DNA from: Nostoc sp. NMS7
Lineage (GTDB): Bacteria; Cyanobacteriota; Cyanobacteriia; Cyanobacteriales; Nostocaceae
Direction of reading: 5' to 3'
NCBI RefSeq assembly: GCF_017115085.1
Contig: NZ_JABXKJ010000097.1
Location: 1 to 64,000 of the forward strand
Length of the DNA: 64,000 bases
Below, piece by piece: positions 7,956 to 33,383 of the stretch. Both the position numbers and the translations under genes were made by a program. Numbering within the stretch: position 1 is the first letter of the stretch; every line of letters starts with the position of its first letter. The notes beneath the pieces are model-generated. The model saw only the letters and a program-made list of their open reading frames with translations. It ran no database searches and was not told the DNA's origin.

Positions 7956-8741
7956 ATGCTGCTGATAGTCAGTAAAATGTTAACTCTTACTTGTGCATCC
8001 TTGTCCGGTGGCCAGGGAAAAACAACTGTTGCAATCTTGTTGGGTAGAATGCTTGCTCAAACAGGACAGCGTGTACTGATGATTGATGCCGATCCCCAAG
8101 CGAACCTAACTTTTTACCTGGGGCACGAAGTTCAGCAGAATCAACCCACGCTTCTAGAAGTTCTCAAAAAACAGATCAATACTGAAGATGGTATTTACGA
8201 AATCGGAGAAAACCTATGGTTAATTCCTGCTGATGATGGATTAGATAATGCTCAAGAATTTTTGTCTGGGAGCGGTATGGGAGCTATTGTTCTGAGCAAA
8301 CGCTTAAAAGAGATATCAGATTTATTCCAATATTGCATTGTCGATGCGCCACCTCAGCGATCGCAAATCTGCCTTACATCGTTGGGGGCAGCTGACCATA
8401 TCATCATTCCTGTAGAAGCATCATCCAAAGGTGTAAATTCTCTCATCCGAACTCTGAGTTTAGTTGAGGAGCTTCAAGAAATTGATGCTTTTTCAGGGAT
8501 AGTACTTGGCATCTTGCCATTCAGAGATAAATGGGTAGGTAATAACCAAGTCGCACAAAGTAAGGCGAGTATCAGTGCAATGCGAACAATTGCCGAAGAA
8601 ATAGTCGTTTTACCTTCAATTTTAGAATCTGAACAATTTAAAAAGGCCATAGATAAAGGTGTAAGTTTGTCCTCTCTAGGATTTGAACAACTCGAAACTC
8701 CCTTCCAACAAATTATCGAGAGGTTACAAAAGAATGTCTGA
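7956..8741 (+). CDS. parA: ParA-type partition ATPase
   Basis: The 261-residue product (ATG at 7977, MLTLTCASLSGGQGKTT, is an equally good start) has the deviant Walker A SLSGGQGKTTVA at its N-terminus. Walker A' is VLMIDADPQANLT, Walker B is YCIVDAPPQRS, and IIIPVEASSKGVNSL is typical of ParA/Soj/MinD proteins. The lack of an N-terminal HTH domain makes it the short, type Ib-like form that relies on a separate small DNA-binding protein. It overlaps the next gene by 8 bases, and its upstream region is the TGACTAAAT array. Confidence 0.9.
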   Translation: MLLIVSKMLTLTCASLSGGQGKTTVAILLGRMLAQTGQRVLMIDADPQANLTFYLGHEVQQNQPTLLEVLKKQINTEDGIYEIGENLWLIPADDGLDNAQEFLSGSGMGAIVLSKRLKEISDLFQYCIVDAPPQRSQICLTSLGAADHIIIPVEASSKGVNSLIRTLSLVEELQEIDAFSGIVLGILPFRDKWVGNNQVAQSKASISAMRTIAEEIVVLPSILESEQFKKAIDKGVSLSSLGFEQLETPFQQIIERLQKNV

Positions 8742-9192: not shown

Positions 9193-9221
9193 GTTAACCG
9201 ATACCTTTTTGCTAACATTCA

Positions 9222-10331
9222 TTAACAAATACACTCTTGGAGAGAGGGCGTATCAAGCAATGCACGAAGGAAAATCCCTCGCGCACCATTTAGATCCCGG
9301 CTCATCACTTGCCCATCAGATGGAGACTTGACGAATTTAGCGCCACCAAGATTGGGGATTATTTCACCAGTCCAACTGACTGTTTTTGATGTGTATGCCT
9401 CGTTAACATCCATAACTGACTTGCTAGTTTCAAAAGCTTTGTGTTTAAGAAACTGCTTAAATCGGTAGTGGGAGAGTGTTAACATCTGGCGTACTGACTT
9501 TGACCTAATTCGCCGCTTTGCTTTCTTAGACATCTGAGATGTTTCAAAAGTTGGTAGCAAAATAATGTCAAAGTTGTCAACCAAAAATCGAGCAGTTTTC
9601 TTGTGCAGTTCGTCTACAAGATTTTTGATTTTACCTCGTAGTGAACTTGCCGCAAGTTTCATTCTTCTTTTCTGTTTGCATTTAGCTTTGGTGAGTTTAG
9701 AAATCAACTTATCTAAGCGGAAGCATAGCTTCTGAATTTGCAAATTAGCAGCTGTTCCAATTTCACCAAAACTAGATTCAGAAAAGAATGTGATAAACGT
9801 CCTGATACCGGGGTCAAGTGCCACAACGCGTCCTTGGTTATCAGATTTTTCTTGTGGCACGTTCTCTGGAACTGTCAGATAGTAATCACGGTAGGCAAAT
9901 ATTAAACGACAGTCGCCAAAGCTTTGCGGCAAGGCTTCTTTGAAGATTGCCTCACCTAATATAGTGTGGTAAATTCCTAAGTCTTTTACCGCAGACTTGG
10001 GAATGTAGCAAGATTGTACAGTGTCTTTCCTTGACCTAAATCTAACCTTGCTAATACCACCACCATTTTTAAATTTTTTCTTGGCGTTACTAACAGCTTT
10101 ACAGGCATCTTTGATGGCGATTGATTTAATTTGATAAGGGACTGATTTACTCCATTCTGGTAGTCCATTCAATATGTCAGTCTTAATCGCTTTCCAGTTA
10201 GCCTTGATGCTAGAATCTTGCAGCGATTTAACAGTAGTGTTATAGACAAATCTAGACACACCAAACCAAGATTTAAGAATCTGCCTTTGTGCCGCCGTGA
10301 GGAAGATCCGGATCTTCCTTGATTTTTTTAC
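9222..10331 (-). CDS. tnpB: TnpB, RNA-guided nuclease of the IS607 element
   Basis: The track ORF runs to 10793, but everything above about 10331 is an open frame antisense in meaning to tnpA. The recognisable protein starts near KKSRKIRIFLTAAQRQILKS and is about 369 residues. RuvC-like nuclease residues are present: VVALDPGIRTFITFF (Asp), IILLPTFETSQMSKKAKRRI (Glu) and MSRDLNGARGIF (Asp). The zinc-ribbon cysteines usual between the last two motifs are missing; the stretch reads EAYTSKTVSWTGEIIPNLGG. No ATG/GTG/TTG opens the TnpB frame at the homology start. An A7 run there (GTAAAAAAATC) would allow slippage from the tnpA frame. A reRNA (omega RNA) is expected to overlap the 3' end. Confidence 0.8.
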   Translation of the reverse strand, partial: VKKSRKIRIFLTAAQRQILKSWFGVSRFVYNTTVKSLQDSSIKANWKAIKTDILNGLPEWSKSVPYQIKSIAIKDACKAVSNAKKKFKNGGGISKVRFRSRKDTVQSCYIPKSAVKDLGIYHTILGEAIFKEALPQSFGDCRLIFAYRDYYLTVPENVPQEKSDNQGRVVALDPGIRTFITFFSESSFGEIGTAANLQIQKLCFRLDKLISKLTKAKCKQKRRMKLAASSLRGKIKNLVDELHKKTARFLVDNFDIILLPTFETSQMSKKAKRRIRSKSVRQMLTLSHYRFKQFLKHKAFETSKSVMDVNEAYTSKTVSWTGEIIPNLGGAKFVKSPSDGQVMSRDLNGARGIFLRALLDTPSLQECIC

Positions 10332-10863
10332 TGTACTTCCTGAATCCGTGCATCCGACAAGAGAAGACGTAGAAGATGGAGAGAAGATCCGAGGTAAGTT
10401 CTGATTCGGGGCAGTGTACAGTATTGTCGAGAACCACGATTTGTCCACCGTTTTGCTCGACCATGTACTGAATAAGCTCGAATCCAAACCTTGCGAGCCG
10501 GTCACGACAGGCAATAACAAGCGTGAGCTTATCTCCTCGCATAAGTCTGTCCAATAAGGCTTGCAGTCCTTTCCGCTTGAAGTTGATTCCACTGCCAATG
10601 TCTTTGATGATTTCGGCATCTGGGTAGAGTGATTGCATGTAAGCAATTTGTCTACCAAGGTCGTCTCGTTGTTTGGTTGAACTGACTCGGCAGTAACAAA
10701 TAAAGGAGAGCTTCTGGCTTGCACCACAGAGGTAAGACTCGACGTTAAACAGTCTTTGCCCTGCCTCGTTTTTGATGCTTTCGATCTTGCCATTACCTGC
10801 GTACTTCTTTAAAGTGTTTGGATGCAGTCCAAGTCTTTTGACTGCTTCTCGTAGTGGTATGGT
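10273..10863 (-). pseudogene. tnpA: IS607 serine recombinase tnpA, start codon displaced by a small inversion
   Basis: The frame is open for about 196 codons and encodes the full recombinase. It has a MerR-like HTH (PLREAVKRLGLHPNTLKKYA), a catalytic serine motif (FICYCRVSSTKQRDDLGRQ), then KGLQALLDRLMRGDKL and VIACRDRLARFGFELI. It has no start codon: before PLREAV the frame reads TAA-ACC-ATA. The track sees only the part from the internal ATG at 10638, which lacks the HTH and the catalytic serine. The missing start (ATG GTT TAT GTA) is present on the opposite strand within the loop of the flanking inverted repeat at 10844-10884. Re-inverting that loop would restore MVYVPLREAVKRLGLH in frame. 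Confidence 0.8.
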
Positions 10864-10884
10864 TTATGTACCACTACGAGAAGC
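10844..10884. repeat. 16-bp perfect inverted repeat with 9-nt loop carrying the tnpA start
   Basis: Arms GCTTCTCGTAGTGGTA (10844-10859) and TACCACTACGAGAAGC (10869-10884) are exact complements around TGGTTTATG. The left arm is inside tnpA. The loop reads as the beginning of tnpA in the wrong direction. Confidence 0.9.
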
Positions 10885-10908
10885 ATTTGTTAGTATACGT
10901 AATCTATT

Positions 10909-10936
10909 GTTAGCAAATAGTTAGCTATTGGCTAAC
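10909..10936. repeat. Palindrome GTTAGC-a-AATAG-ttag-CTATT-g-GCTAAC
   Basis: Eleven of twelve arm positions pair around a 4-nt loop. It lies just outside tnpA and may mark the left end or a recombinase-binding site of the IS607 element. There is no T-tract on either strand, so it is not a terminator. Confidence 0.55.
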
Positions 10937-11002
10937 CCTAATCCATCCGTGAGAGGTTAAGGTAATTGCACTAATATCTGGGATGTTGTAGGAAAAAGCA
11001 GT

Positions 11003-11021
11003 AATTCTCATAATGAGAATT
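11003..11021. promoter_or_regulatory. Perfect palindrome AATTCTCATAATGAGAATT
   Basis: A 19-bp palindrome with a single central base lies about 60 bases past the stop of the XRE-like gene and 80-120 bases from the IS607 end. It has the size and symmetry of a repressor operator and vaguely resembles Fur/Zur-type boxes in its AT-rich, ATGAGAAT composition. No gene starts directly downstream, so its role is unclear. Confidence 0.4.
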
Positions 11022-11082
11022 GCTGGATATTTGCAACTTGGTGGATAATTACTCTTAGTCAAATTCTATTGCCAATGGTGAG

Positions 11083-11704: not shown

Positions 11705-12634
11705 GTGAAATTTTGTCTTTTCATTTGTATTAGCAAAATTGTGACACAACCAAATTCAAAAATTCAGGGACGTTTCTATCCACTTCAGCATGAAGAATGG
11801 CTGAAAGCCTGCCGTGAACTCACACCAGCACAGAGGGATATCCTCTACTACATCCGAACCATTGATCCTTATAACCAAGGGATTGACATCAATGCCGCCG
11901 AGGTAGCTCGTAAGCTGTCAGCACCAGAGCGGATAGTCCACAGGCAAACTGTAAGCCGCGCTCTCAAGGAATTAGACGCAAAGGGATTCATTGATCTAGA
12001 GCTATTGCAAGTCAGAACCAAGGTGAAGCCAAAGGGATTATGGTGCAATAACACACCTGAATTTATTGAAGACACCGATGGTGTGATGACGTACCCAAGG
12101 TGTGATGACGCACCCAAGGTGTGTGAAGACACCGATGGTGTGATGACGCACCCAAGGTGTGATGACGCACCGAGCGCGATCGCCACGCACCACGCTGGAT
12201 CACCACACACCACGATGGATCATGACGCACCATGCGCGATCGCCACGCACCATGCGGAGGCTGAAAGCCTTGTGGAGAGAGGATTACAAAACCCTAAGAT
12301 CAATAAGAATTATTTAGACTTTATAAAGACTCTCTCAGAAGACGAGCGAGCGAATTTTTTGGAATTTTGTGAGGAAAAAACCAAAAATCTTAGCCAGCCA
12401 GTGAACGACATTGAGGCTTGGTTAGCTCATAAGAACAAAGCCGGAAGAAATCGCTGGGAGGTTTATTACGAAAAATATCTGGCTTCAAAACAGGTACAAG
12501 CCAAAAAAACTGAAACAAAAAATGCTCGAGACGAATTCCACCGAGAAATCGAGGAACGGCAGCGACAGGCTCAAAGAGCTTGGGAAGAGTCGCAAAGGCA
12601 AAATCTCGCTCTTGATACTGGAGGTGCGACATGA
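11705..12634 (+). CDS. Winged-helix plasmid replication initiator-like protein with internal repeats
   Basis: The 309-residue product starts at GTG 11705; GTG 11741 (VTQPNSKIQGRFYPLQHEEW) is a possible alternative. Residues 20-105 form a helix-rich wHTH (ELTPAQRDILYYIRTIDPYN, then VSRALKELDAKGFIDLELLQ) as in RepA/RepR-type initiators. Residues 118-186 are imperfect tandem repeats (EDTDGVMTHPRCDDAP, then ATHHAGS). The C-terminus is a basic/acidic coiled coil (REIEERQRQAQRAWEESQRQ). The stop overlaps the DnaB start by 4 bases (ATGA), so helicase and initiator are translated together. I infer a replication initiator or helicase loader; the family name is not certain. Confidence 0.65.
   Translation: MKFCLFICISKIVTQPNSKIQGRFYPLQHEEWLKACRELTPAQRDILYYIRTIDPYNQGIDINAAEVARKLSAPERIVHRQTVSRALKELDAKGFIDLELLQVRTKVKPKGLWCNNTPEFIEDTDGVMTYPRCDDAPKVCEDTDGVMTHPRCDDAPSAIATHHAGSPHTTMDHDAPCAIATHHAEAESLVERGLQNPKINKNYLDFIKTLSEDERANFLEFCEEKTKNLSQPVNDIEAWLAHKNKAGRNRWEVYYEKYLASKQVQAKKTETKNARDEFHREIEERQRQAQRAWEESQRQNLALDTGGAT
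12060..12260 (+). repeat. Iteron-like repeats TGTGATGACGCACC inside the initiator gene
   Basis: Five copies of (T)GTGATGACG(C/T)ACC occur at about 12082, 12101, 12139, 12158 and 12217, plus GCGATCGCCACGCACCA twice. Spacing alternates near 19-21 and 38 bases. RepA_N-type and other plasmids often keep their origin as repeats within the initiator gene, so this is a candidate oriV. Confidence 0.5.
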
Positions 12635-13986
12635 TTGATAAATTGCCACCCCAAAACATCGAAGCGGAAGAGGCGATTTTAGGCGGTATCATGCTTGACC
12701 CAGAAGCAATTGGTAGAGTCAGCGATCGCCTTATTCCCGAAGCCTTTTACATTAGCGCCCATAAAGATATCTATCAAGCCGTCCAGCGCCTTCATTACTC
12801 TGGTAAACCCACTGATTTACTCACAGTTACAGCTTGGCTTACTGACCACGATTTACTAGTCCGTATCGGCGGGAGAAATAAATTAGCAACTCTGGTAGAC
12901 CGCACAGTGTCAGCTGTCAACATTGACACTTTAGCCGAGTTGGTAATGGACAAATTCGCGCGTAGACAGTTAATCAAGGCTGGAAATGAAATTGTACATC
13001 TGGGTTACGAGACAGAAACTGAGTTACCACAAATCCTTGACCAATCAGAACAGAAAGTTTTCCAATTATCTAATCAAACCCTATCTTCAAACACTGAACA
13101 CAACAGCACGATTAACGTTGCTGCTTACGAGGATTTAAATTCAGGAAACCCCATTTACCCTACAGGACTTCATGAACTCGATAATTTGATGGTGGGATTT
13201 GAAAGCGGCACACTCACCATAGTTGCGGGTAGGCCATCAATGGGAAAGTCCCAAATTGCCTTGTTTTTGGCTTTCCAAATGATACTGTTCCATGAGCTAC
13301 CTGTGGTCATCTTCTCCTTGGAGATGACAAAGAAACAATTGGAGTACAGGCTGTGGAGCTTAATTAGTATTACCAACGCTTACAAGCATCTAGAGTTAAC
13401 GCCACTAAAAAGCGATCGCATCCGCAGACATCGCTCAGGTAATAAACCCCTAGCAGACTGGGAATTTACAAGCATTGCCAAAATCGTCGGTGTTGCTTCA
13501 GAATTACCGCTGTACATGAATGACTCAAGGGGCATCACCGTTTCACAAATTGCGTCAGAATGCCGTCAAATTAAGGTCAAAGAAGGAAAACTGGGGTTGG
13601 TTGTAGTTGATTACCTACAAATGATGGCAGAGGACTCTGGAGGGAACCGTAGCTATGAACTAGGAGATGTGGCCAGGGGACTTTACAAAATGGCAGGGGA
13701 ACTGGATGTACCTGTGCTAGCACTGTCGCAAATCTCTAGGGGAGTTGAGGGCAGACAGAATAAGCGCCCAATGATGAGCGACCTCAGCCAATCGGGAATT
13801 TTAGAAATGGTGGCAGACAATATTATTCTCGCTTACCGGGATGAGTACTACAACTCAGATACTACAGATCAAGGAATATTAGAACTCATCATGGCTAAGG
13901 CACGACACGGTGAAACAGGCACAGCAACGGTATTTTTTGACAAGTCCTATGGAATTATCCAGAATTTGCGCTCCGGAAATATCTGA
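12631..13986 (+). CDS. dnaB: Replicative DNA helicase DnaB
   Basis: The 451-residue product is the normal size for an intein-free DnaB. The N-terminal domain begins LPPQNIEAEEAILGGIMLDP. Walker A is TIVAGRPSMGKSQIALFLA, H2 is PVVIFSLEMTKKQLEYRL, the Walker B strand is LVVVDYLQMM, and the motif before the end is VLALSQISRGVEGRQNKRPM-MSDLSQSG. It unwinds the fork in front of the polymerase. It overlaps the initiator-like gene by ATGA and is followed by an overlapping reading frame. A plasmid-borne DnaB suggests the replicon brings its own helicase rather than using only the host copy. Confidence 0.95.
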   Translation: MIDKLPPQNIEAEEAILGGIMLDPEAIGRVSDRLIPEAFYISAHKDIYQAVQRLHYSGKPTDLLTVTAWLTDHDLLVRIGGRNKLATLVDRTVSAVNIDTLAELVMDKFARRQLIKAGNEIVHLGYETETELPQILDQSEQKVFQLSNQTLSSNTEHNSTINVAAYEDLNSGNPIYPTGLHELDNLMVGFESGTLTIVAGRPSMGKSQIALFLAFQMILFHELPVVIFSLEMTKKQLEYRLWSLISITNAYKHLELTPLKSDRIRRHRSGNKPLADWEFTSIAKIVGVASELPLYMNDSRGITVSQIASECRQIKVKEGKLGLVVVDYLQMMAEDSGGNRSYELGDVARGLYKMAGELDVPVLALSQISRGVEGRQNKRPMMSDLSQSGILEMVADNIILAYRDEYYNSDTTDQGILELIMAKARHGETGTATVFFDKSYGIIQNLRSGNI

Positions 13987-32138: not shown

Positions 32139-33383
32139 TTATACCCCTGATAACCCAGAATTTCTTTTCTCCGTTGTAACTATCCAACGGGGCCAAAATG
32201 GATCATGTCCTGGTAAAACTCTTTGAAGTTCCTGATGAATTTTTGTTGGTATTTTCAGATTTTCTGGAAACGCATTCATATCATCATCACGCATCCAAGC
32301 CTCTGCTGCTTCAATTGCGATTTCTGCTTCTTTGGAACGGGCTTGTTTGAGTCCAAAAATGTCTGAGGTTAACCATCCAACTATGTCCCCTTGTTTTGAC
32401 CAAGGTACTTCGTCAAGGCTAACCTCTCTATCTTGTAATTTAAATAAAAATAGTTTATCTTCTTGCTCATGAAAATTTGGCTCTAAGGAAGCAAGAATAA
32501 GTGGAGAATGAGTAGTTACTAAAGCCTGTATCTTCATCCTGGGTTGTAATTCTGTCACCACAGATAAAATAGCTGGTAAAATCACCCTCTGCCAGCGAGG
32601 ATGCAAATGAGATTCAATTTCATCAATTAGTAAAACTATCTGATTTACTGGCTTTTGTTGTCGCAGTTCTGAAGCTTTTTTATGTTCGTACCAAGTCCAC
32701 ACTAGTAAATAAGCCAGTCCCAAAATACGCTTCATTCCGGCTGATGTTTGAGTAACAGGAACATTCCCATAAGGCAGATCAACTGTAGGAATATCGCGCA
32801 CGTCTTCAATAGAAACTCGCGTTGGTTCTCCCACTTGTATCCATTCGGAAGGGTGAGGTGCAAGTTTTTTAATGACATTAGAAAAGAGTTCAAATGGATA
32901 TTTATTGGGTTGATTCTGCCATGTAACCCAATCTTGAATTAGACCATTACAAATAACTTTATCTTTTGACTTTAATCCATTCCAAAGTGTATTTGGATTA
33001 AAGTCAAAAGGAATATCGCGTTGGCGAGCTGGGTCAAAAACAGAAAAACTACCATCAACCCGCACATAAATAACTACCTCTTTTAATAAAGGAGGCATTT
33101 GTAAATTACGCCATTGCTGTTCAGAAAAATCAAAGTAGCTCTGATACTCTCTTATATTTTTTTTATTGCTAACTACGGCTGTAATTTGTGGATTTTCACC
33201 TTTGACTCGCTGTGGGTACGCTGGTTGCTCTGCCCAATTTGTAGTCATCACCCACCATGCAATATCGAGTAAAAAACTTTTACCTAAACCATTATCACCC
33301 GTAAATATATTGAGCCTATCGGCAAATGCGACATCAAAATGGGCAGCAGGACCAACTTGTTGGAGGTGAAGTTCTTTTAACAT
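32139..33383 (-). CDS. SMC/ABC-like AAA ATPase of a two-gene defence pair (Septu PtuA-like)
   Basis: ATG 33383 (MLKELHLQQVGPAAHFDVAF) is preferred over the first codon of the track. The 414-residue product has Walker A NIFTGDNGLGKSFLLDIAWW at the N-terminus, an ABC-type signature TQTSAGMKRILGLAYLLVW, Walker B IVLLIDEIESHLHPRWQRVI and the switch QALVTTHSPLIL. This is the AAA_21/OLD-like arrangement used by many defence ATPases. With a downstream HNH gene the pair resembles Septu, which degrades phage DNA when triggered. Related retron and other ATPase-HNH pairs look alike, so the exact type is open. Confidence 0.78.
   Translation of the reverse strand: MLKELHLQQVGPAAHFDVAFADRLNIFTGDNGLGKSFLLDIAWWVMTTNWAEQPAYPQRVKGENPQITAVVSNKKNIREYQSYFDFSEQQWRNLQMPPLLKEVVIYVRVDGSFSVFDPARQRDIPFDFNPNTLWNGLKSKDKVICNGLIQDWVTWQNQPNKYPFELFSNVIKKLAPHPSEWIQVGEPTRVSIEDVRDIPTVDLPYGNVPVTQTSAGMKRILGLAYLLVWTWYEHKKASELRQQKPVNQIVLLIDEIESHLHPRWQRVILPAILSVVTELQPRMKIQALVTTHSPLILASLEPNFHEQEDKLFLFKLQDREVSLDEVPWSKQGDIVGWLTSDIFGLKQARSKEAEIAIEAAEAWMRDDDMNAFPENLKIPTKIHQELQRVLPGHDPFWPRWIVTTEKRNSGLSGV

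Follow-up and report, generated by a model that had tools for sequence, protein, structure and literature searches.

How did the transposase gene of an insertion sequence in Nostoc sp. NMS7 come to carry most of its start codon turned round in the loop of a perfect hairpin, and is the arrangement a switch on translation or the trace of a mutation? To answer this we analysed a 64,000-nucleotide stretch of the genome, here called the window, together with relatives of the element that it contains:

9200..10937, minus strand: IS607-type tnpA-tnpB insertion sequence of ∼1738 bp, left end at 10937, delimited by empty sites and limits of homology.
10273..10860, minus strand: tnpA frame (MerR-like HTH plus serine recombinase), first three codons missing; relatives start M-A-Y-V-P-L-R.
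9222..10340, minus strand: tnpB frame, open to its stop and overlapping tnpA, start not fixed, recognized by its Pfam domains.

The empty site is present in six related genomes (G038, G050, G025, G018, G033 and G003), where the uninterrupted sequence is GTTAACCCTAATC (in one, GTTAAGCCTAATC); the window has GTTAACC, 1738 bp and then CTAATCC. These empty sites indicate a single insertion at TAACC. The boundaries are ambiguous by up to 5 bp, as TAACC is present at both junctions, either as a shared end sequence or as a 5-bp duplication, and homology to relatives stops at 9194-9198 and 10937-10942. The tnpA product matches Resolvase (PF00239, E 3e-16) and MerR (PF00376, E 8.5e-4, under its curated cut-off), and that of tnpB matches OrfB_IS605 HTH, OrfB_IS605 and Cas12f1-like TNB. 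A predicted serine recombinase with an N-terminal MerR-like domain, an adjoining tnpB and phased left-end motifs place the element in the IS607 family. At the positions where zinc-ribbon cysteines would be expected in TnpB, this protein and its relatives have SWTG and SPSDG or similar, and the cysteine pairs thus seem to be missing from the subfamily. The genome holds no second copy of the element, its other TnpA homologues being at most 39% identical, and a search of a plasmid collection returned just 45-54-nt matches, in the flank.

Beside the insertion, positions 10978-11022 comprise 45 bp where the related strains L109 and L110 have ∼240 bp. This difference, which adjoins a 13-bp inverted repeat at 10999-11025, would be a separate small insertion or deletion. 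By eye, the frames flanking the element resemble a ParA-type ATPase (7956-8741) and a DnaB-type helicase (12631-13986), which hints at a plasmid or some other mobile replicon.

The hairpin lies across the expected start of tnpA:

10843..10859, minus strand: downstream (right) arm, TACCACTACGAGAAGCA; tnpA codons unchanged and the same in close relatives; proposed template of the switch discussed below.
10860..10868, minus strand: loop, CATAAACCA; reverse complement of the expected TGGTTTATG, which carries most of the start codon.
10869..10885, minus strand: upstream (left) arm, TGCTTCTCGTAGTGGTA; close relatives have TGCTAATATAGTGGTA; probably rewritten by template switching.

A preliminary description of this DNA reported a perfect inverted repeat with 16-bp arms and a 9-nt loop. 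The repeat (10843-10885) is indeed perfect and the loop 9 nt long, but the arms measure 17 nt and are 100% complementary. From base composition, only ∼2e-4 repeats with arms of at least 17 bp and a loop of 0-30 would be expected per 64 kb. The sole further perfect inverted repeat of 17 bp in the window lies at 32963-33010 and has a 14-nt loop (CTTTTGACTTTAATCCA).

The tnpA frame, read on the minus strand, runs TAA ACC ATA CCA CTA CGA GAA GCA, with an in-frame stop and no ATG. Ahead of the catalytic serine motif this frame contains no in-frame ATG, GTG or TTG; such a codon is first met at the ORF opening at 10638, downstream of the motif (YCRVSS). Non-standard initiation at ATA or at a downstream CTG is conceivable. 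When the loop is flipped in silico the sequence becomes ATG GTT TAT GTA CCA CTA CGA, that is M-V-Y-V-P-L-R, in frame with the whole TnpA. Three statements of the preliminary description are thereby borne out: that the start codon is inverted in the loop, that the frame lacks a start and meets a stop, and that flipping the loop restores this peptide in frame with the recombinase. With respect to translation, its proposal that one loop orientation would be functional and the other dead is reasonable.

The relatives show which orientation came first. We collected 55 loci through protein similarity and added others through DNA matches. Of those that include the start region, nearly all encode M-x-Y-[VI] and then P-L-R or similar, and the closest ones read TGCTAATATAGTGGT ATG GCT TAT GTA CCA CTA CGA GAA GCA. 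In close relatives the right arm is identical to that of the window and the loop is in coding orientation in all. The window loop is the reverse complement of TGGTTTATG, which occurs in L050; most relatives have TGGCTTATG, with one base different. Pairing in the closest relatives is that of a quasi-palindrome, with an inner 8-bp match (TAGTGGTA/TACCACTA), an unpaired stretch and an outer 4-bp match (TGCT/AGCA). Conservation of the long arms, a point raised in the preliminary description, was not found: when left and right arms are paired without gaps, 7-12 of 17 positions match in relatives, but all 17 match in the window and in Nostoc sp. KVJ20. In the more distant L068 and L085, another short inverted repeat immediately precedes the ATG of tnpA (around locus position 1991), with arms TCTAACACT/AGTGTTAGA and TCTACCAC/GTGGTAGA. 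Changes on both sides keep its pairing, and it could serve as an operator or as an end site.

We also scanned 218 genomes of the family by pattern. Of the 25 matches, 23 carry the loop in coding orientation (M-A-Y-V-P-L-R) and two carry it inverted. The inverted loci are the window and KVJ20 (G016), at the same insertion site. Two of the 23 coding-orientation matches, GTATCGCTTATG and GTATAGCTTATG, carry a point change within the ATG, both in G093. No further inverted copy emerged from a scan of 391 genomes of the order. In a tnpA tree built without the hairpin region, the window and KVJ20 were joined (100/100) inside a clade of coding-orientation elements (97/96). Since they nest within this supported clade, the inverted state is derived, and the comparison with relatives called for at the outset thus identifies the coding orientation as ancestral. 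The alignment between the two strains runs through the element and both flanks (7.4 kb, 96.7%), and they therefore share one insertion; the inverted state is inherited by two strains at one insertion site.

Hairpins can mislead sequencing, and a misread or misassembled hairpin is one alternative. However, the same state is present in the separate assembly of KVJ20, which differs at other sites. We consequently rejected an artefact, to which we assign almost no probability.

What kind of mutation could produce this derived state? Close relatives retain the imperfect repeat, with 8-bp inner and 4-bp outer pairing, from which the change would have started. Relative to them, the right arm is unchanged, the left arm has been rewritten to its complement and the spacer has been reverse-complemented. 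The difference between the window and its nearest relative, L037, amounts to 14 separate edits, or to one template switch plus one edit. In the latter model CGCTAATATAGTGGTATGGCTTATG is replaced by the reverse complement of TGGCTTATGTACCACTACGAGAAGCA; the one leftover edit falls in the loop triplet (GCT to GTT, third base), and the resulting state is also seen in L050. From this pattern we infer a change of strand by the polymerase during DNA synthesis. The most probable explanation by far, in our judgment, is that a single inter-strand template switch in DNA replication left the structure behind as a scar, probably inactivating and passed on to both strains. The template-switching reading offered in the preliminary description is thus strongly supported, insofar that the relatives combine an imperfect palindrome with a coding loop, and that one switch explains both arm and loop.

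According to this hypothesis, the ancestor would have had an imperfect palindrome across the tnpA start, TGCT-AATA-TAGTGGTA, loop TGGYTTATG, TACCACTA-CGAGA-AGCA. The nascent strand would have moved to the complementary strand, taken from it a reversed copy of loop and right arm, and come back where the palindrome ends on the other side. Such a switch would make the left arm perfect and turn the loop round, and in doing so would take away the start codon of tnpA and place a stop in its frame.

With an intra-strand fold-back, an arm would become perfect and the loop would keep its orientation. Such an event could nevertheless have been the first of two mutations, with the loop inverted separately later, between arms that were already perfect. 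Two successive events would yield the same sequence as one switch, and nine of ten yeast spacer inversions arose between perfect arms (PMC8604942). We consider this order of events unlikely, as a single switch is enough to reduce the 14 edits to one, and as no intermediate was found among the relatives, although the inverted loci number just two.

The single inter-strand switch would have had consequences beyond the start codon, and these involve two features upstream of it:

10876..10881, minus strand: site of a -10-like box; TCTCGT in the window, where relatives, 6 nt ahead of the ATG, have TAATAT, TATACT or similar.
10879..10917, minus strand: four left-end repeats of 9 bp, phased at 10 bp (LE 21-59), TTTGCTAAC, ATAGATTAC, TATACTAAC and AATGCTTCT.

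When 37 distinct upstream sequences were aligned on the start codon, the -10-like box had T in 30/37, A in 26/37 and the final T in 30/37. Its position six bases ahead of the ATG would be fitting for a leaderless transcript, and we take it to be a putative promoter element. In the window its site overlaps the fourth, innermost left-end repeat, which reads AATGCTTCT as opposed to AATGCTAAT in relatives, its inner half having been rewritten. The switch would therefore have erased the probable -10 box as well as half of the innermost putative TnpA-binding repeat, and the element would probably have lost its own transposase, tnpB being still open.

In IS1535 the motifs a-d lie ∼20 to 60 bp from the left end (PMC6188088), a layout matched by the four phased putative TnpA-binding repeats of the window. 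Because half of motif d in IS1535 still supports complex assembly (PMC6188088), the left end of the window element may, by analogy, still be usable by TnpA supplied in trans. The strain's own genome encodes no close TnpA.

These observations bear on the suggestion in the preliminary description that the loop is an on/off switch. It would require the 9-nt loop to undergo repeated inversion, through template switching or the processing of a cruciform, and so to toggle tnpA translation. Perfect arms favor spacer inversion, reversible spacer inversions are known in yeast (PMC8604942), and the flipped loop does open the reading frame with M-V-Y-V-P-L-R. However, perfect arms were found with one loop orientation only: a pattern search of the 218 family and 391 order genomes detected no copy combining perfect arms with a coding loop, and a search of viral contigs for the perfect arms gave no match. 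Moreover, both carriers are in one state at one site, by descent. Finally, since the event erased the conserved -10-like box, a loop turned back would reopen the reading frame, but the likely promoter would be gone in either orientation. We therefore consider a repeatedly inverting loop very improbable, and give equally little credence to the perfected hairpin flipping spontaneously at a useful rate, as a tiny reversible switch of transposase translation without a dedicated recombinase. Occasional flipping is possible.

Between the window and KVJ20, tnpB is 99.7% identical. In tnpA, three of the four codon differences between the two are nonsynonymous, which suggests relaxed constraint from small numbers. 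Among these differences are G34V in TnpA of KVJ20, at a position that does not vary across 27 relatives, and F163 in that of the window, where 26/27 relatives have L. Departures from conserved TnpA columns number five in the window and five in KVJ20, compared to 0-3 in most close relatives and up to 17 in distant ones; these counts should be interpreted with some caution since the comparison is unbalanced, the window and KVJ20 rows being excluded from each other's control. Signs of decay are few, and only suggestive.

The mutational process proposed here is already known, and the window is a new and unusually clean instance of it in a bacterial insertion sequence. Our literature searches found no paper combining IS607 with template switching, and nothing on point for loop inversion in transposase genes. 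The locus provides a clean natural bacterial case in which one replication template switch would both perfect a palindrome and invert its loop, and in which a transposase was probably silenced in one step, losing start codon and likely promoter together. An arm change combined with loop inversion is described as rare (PMC8604942, PMC8794818). A similar quasi-palindrome lies over the tnpA start in most close relatives, and this element family could serve to measure how often template switches disable transposases.

Compared with other IS607-family insertion sequences (PMC6188088), the element has the same serine tnpA with an N-terminal DNA-binding domain, the same tnpB and phased left-end motifs, but this copy has lost its tnpA start. 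E. coli quasipalindrome mutation hot spots (PMC7202029) likewise involve bacterial replication template switching at imperfect inverted repeats; they were described there in laboratory assays, whereas the window records a natural event persisting in two strains. Template-switch loop inversions occur in rRNA hairpins, with loop-only ones shown in bacteria; according to the authors, their model would be supported most strongly by a compensatory arm change together with loop inversion, which was extremely rare in rRNA (PMC8794818). The window shares this combination of arm change and loop inversion, but outside the rRNA genes where those cases are located. The closest parallel comes from yeast, where intermolecular (inter-strand) template switching homogenises arms and inverts the spacer, and where REG2 passed from a 5-bp to a 16-bp repeat with inverted spacer in one event; such inversions were attributed to a polymerase that hops twice, initially onto the other strand (PMC8604942). 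As in REG2 and others, short imperfect arms in the window became one long perfect repeat with the spacer inverted in place, and the sequence closely fits the published signature of arm homogenisation plus spacer inversion. It differs from REG2 insofar that it concerns a cyanobacterial insertion sequence and a gene start region, that the loop measures 9 nt and the arm changed in length by 1 nt, and that its effect is probable gene loss rather than the amino-acid replacement of the yeast cases (PMC8604942).
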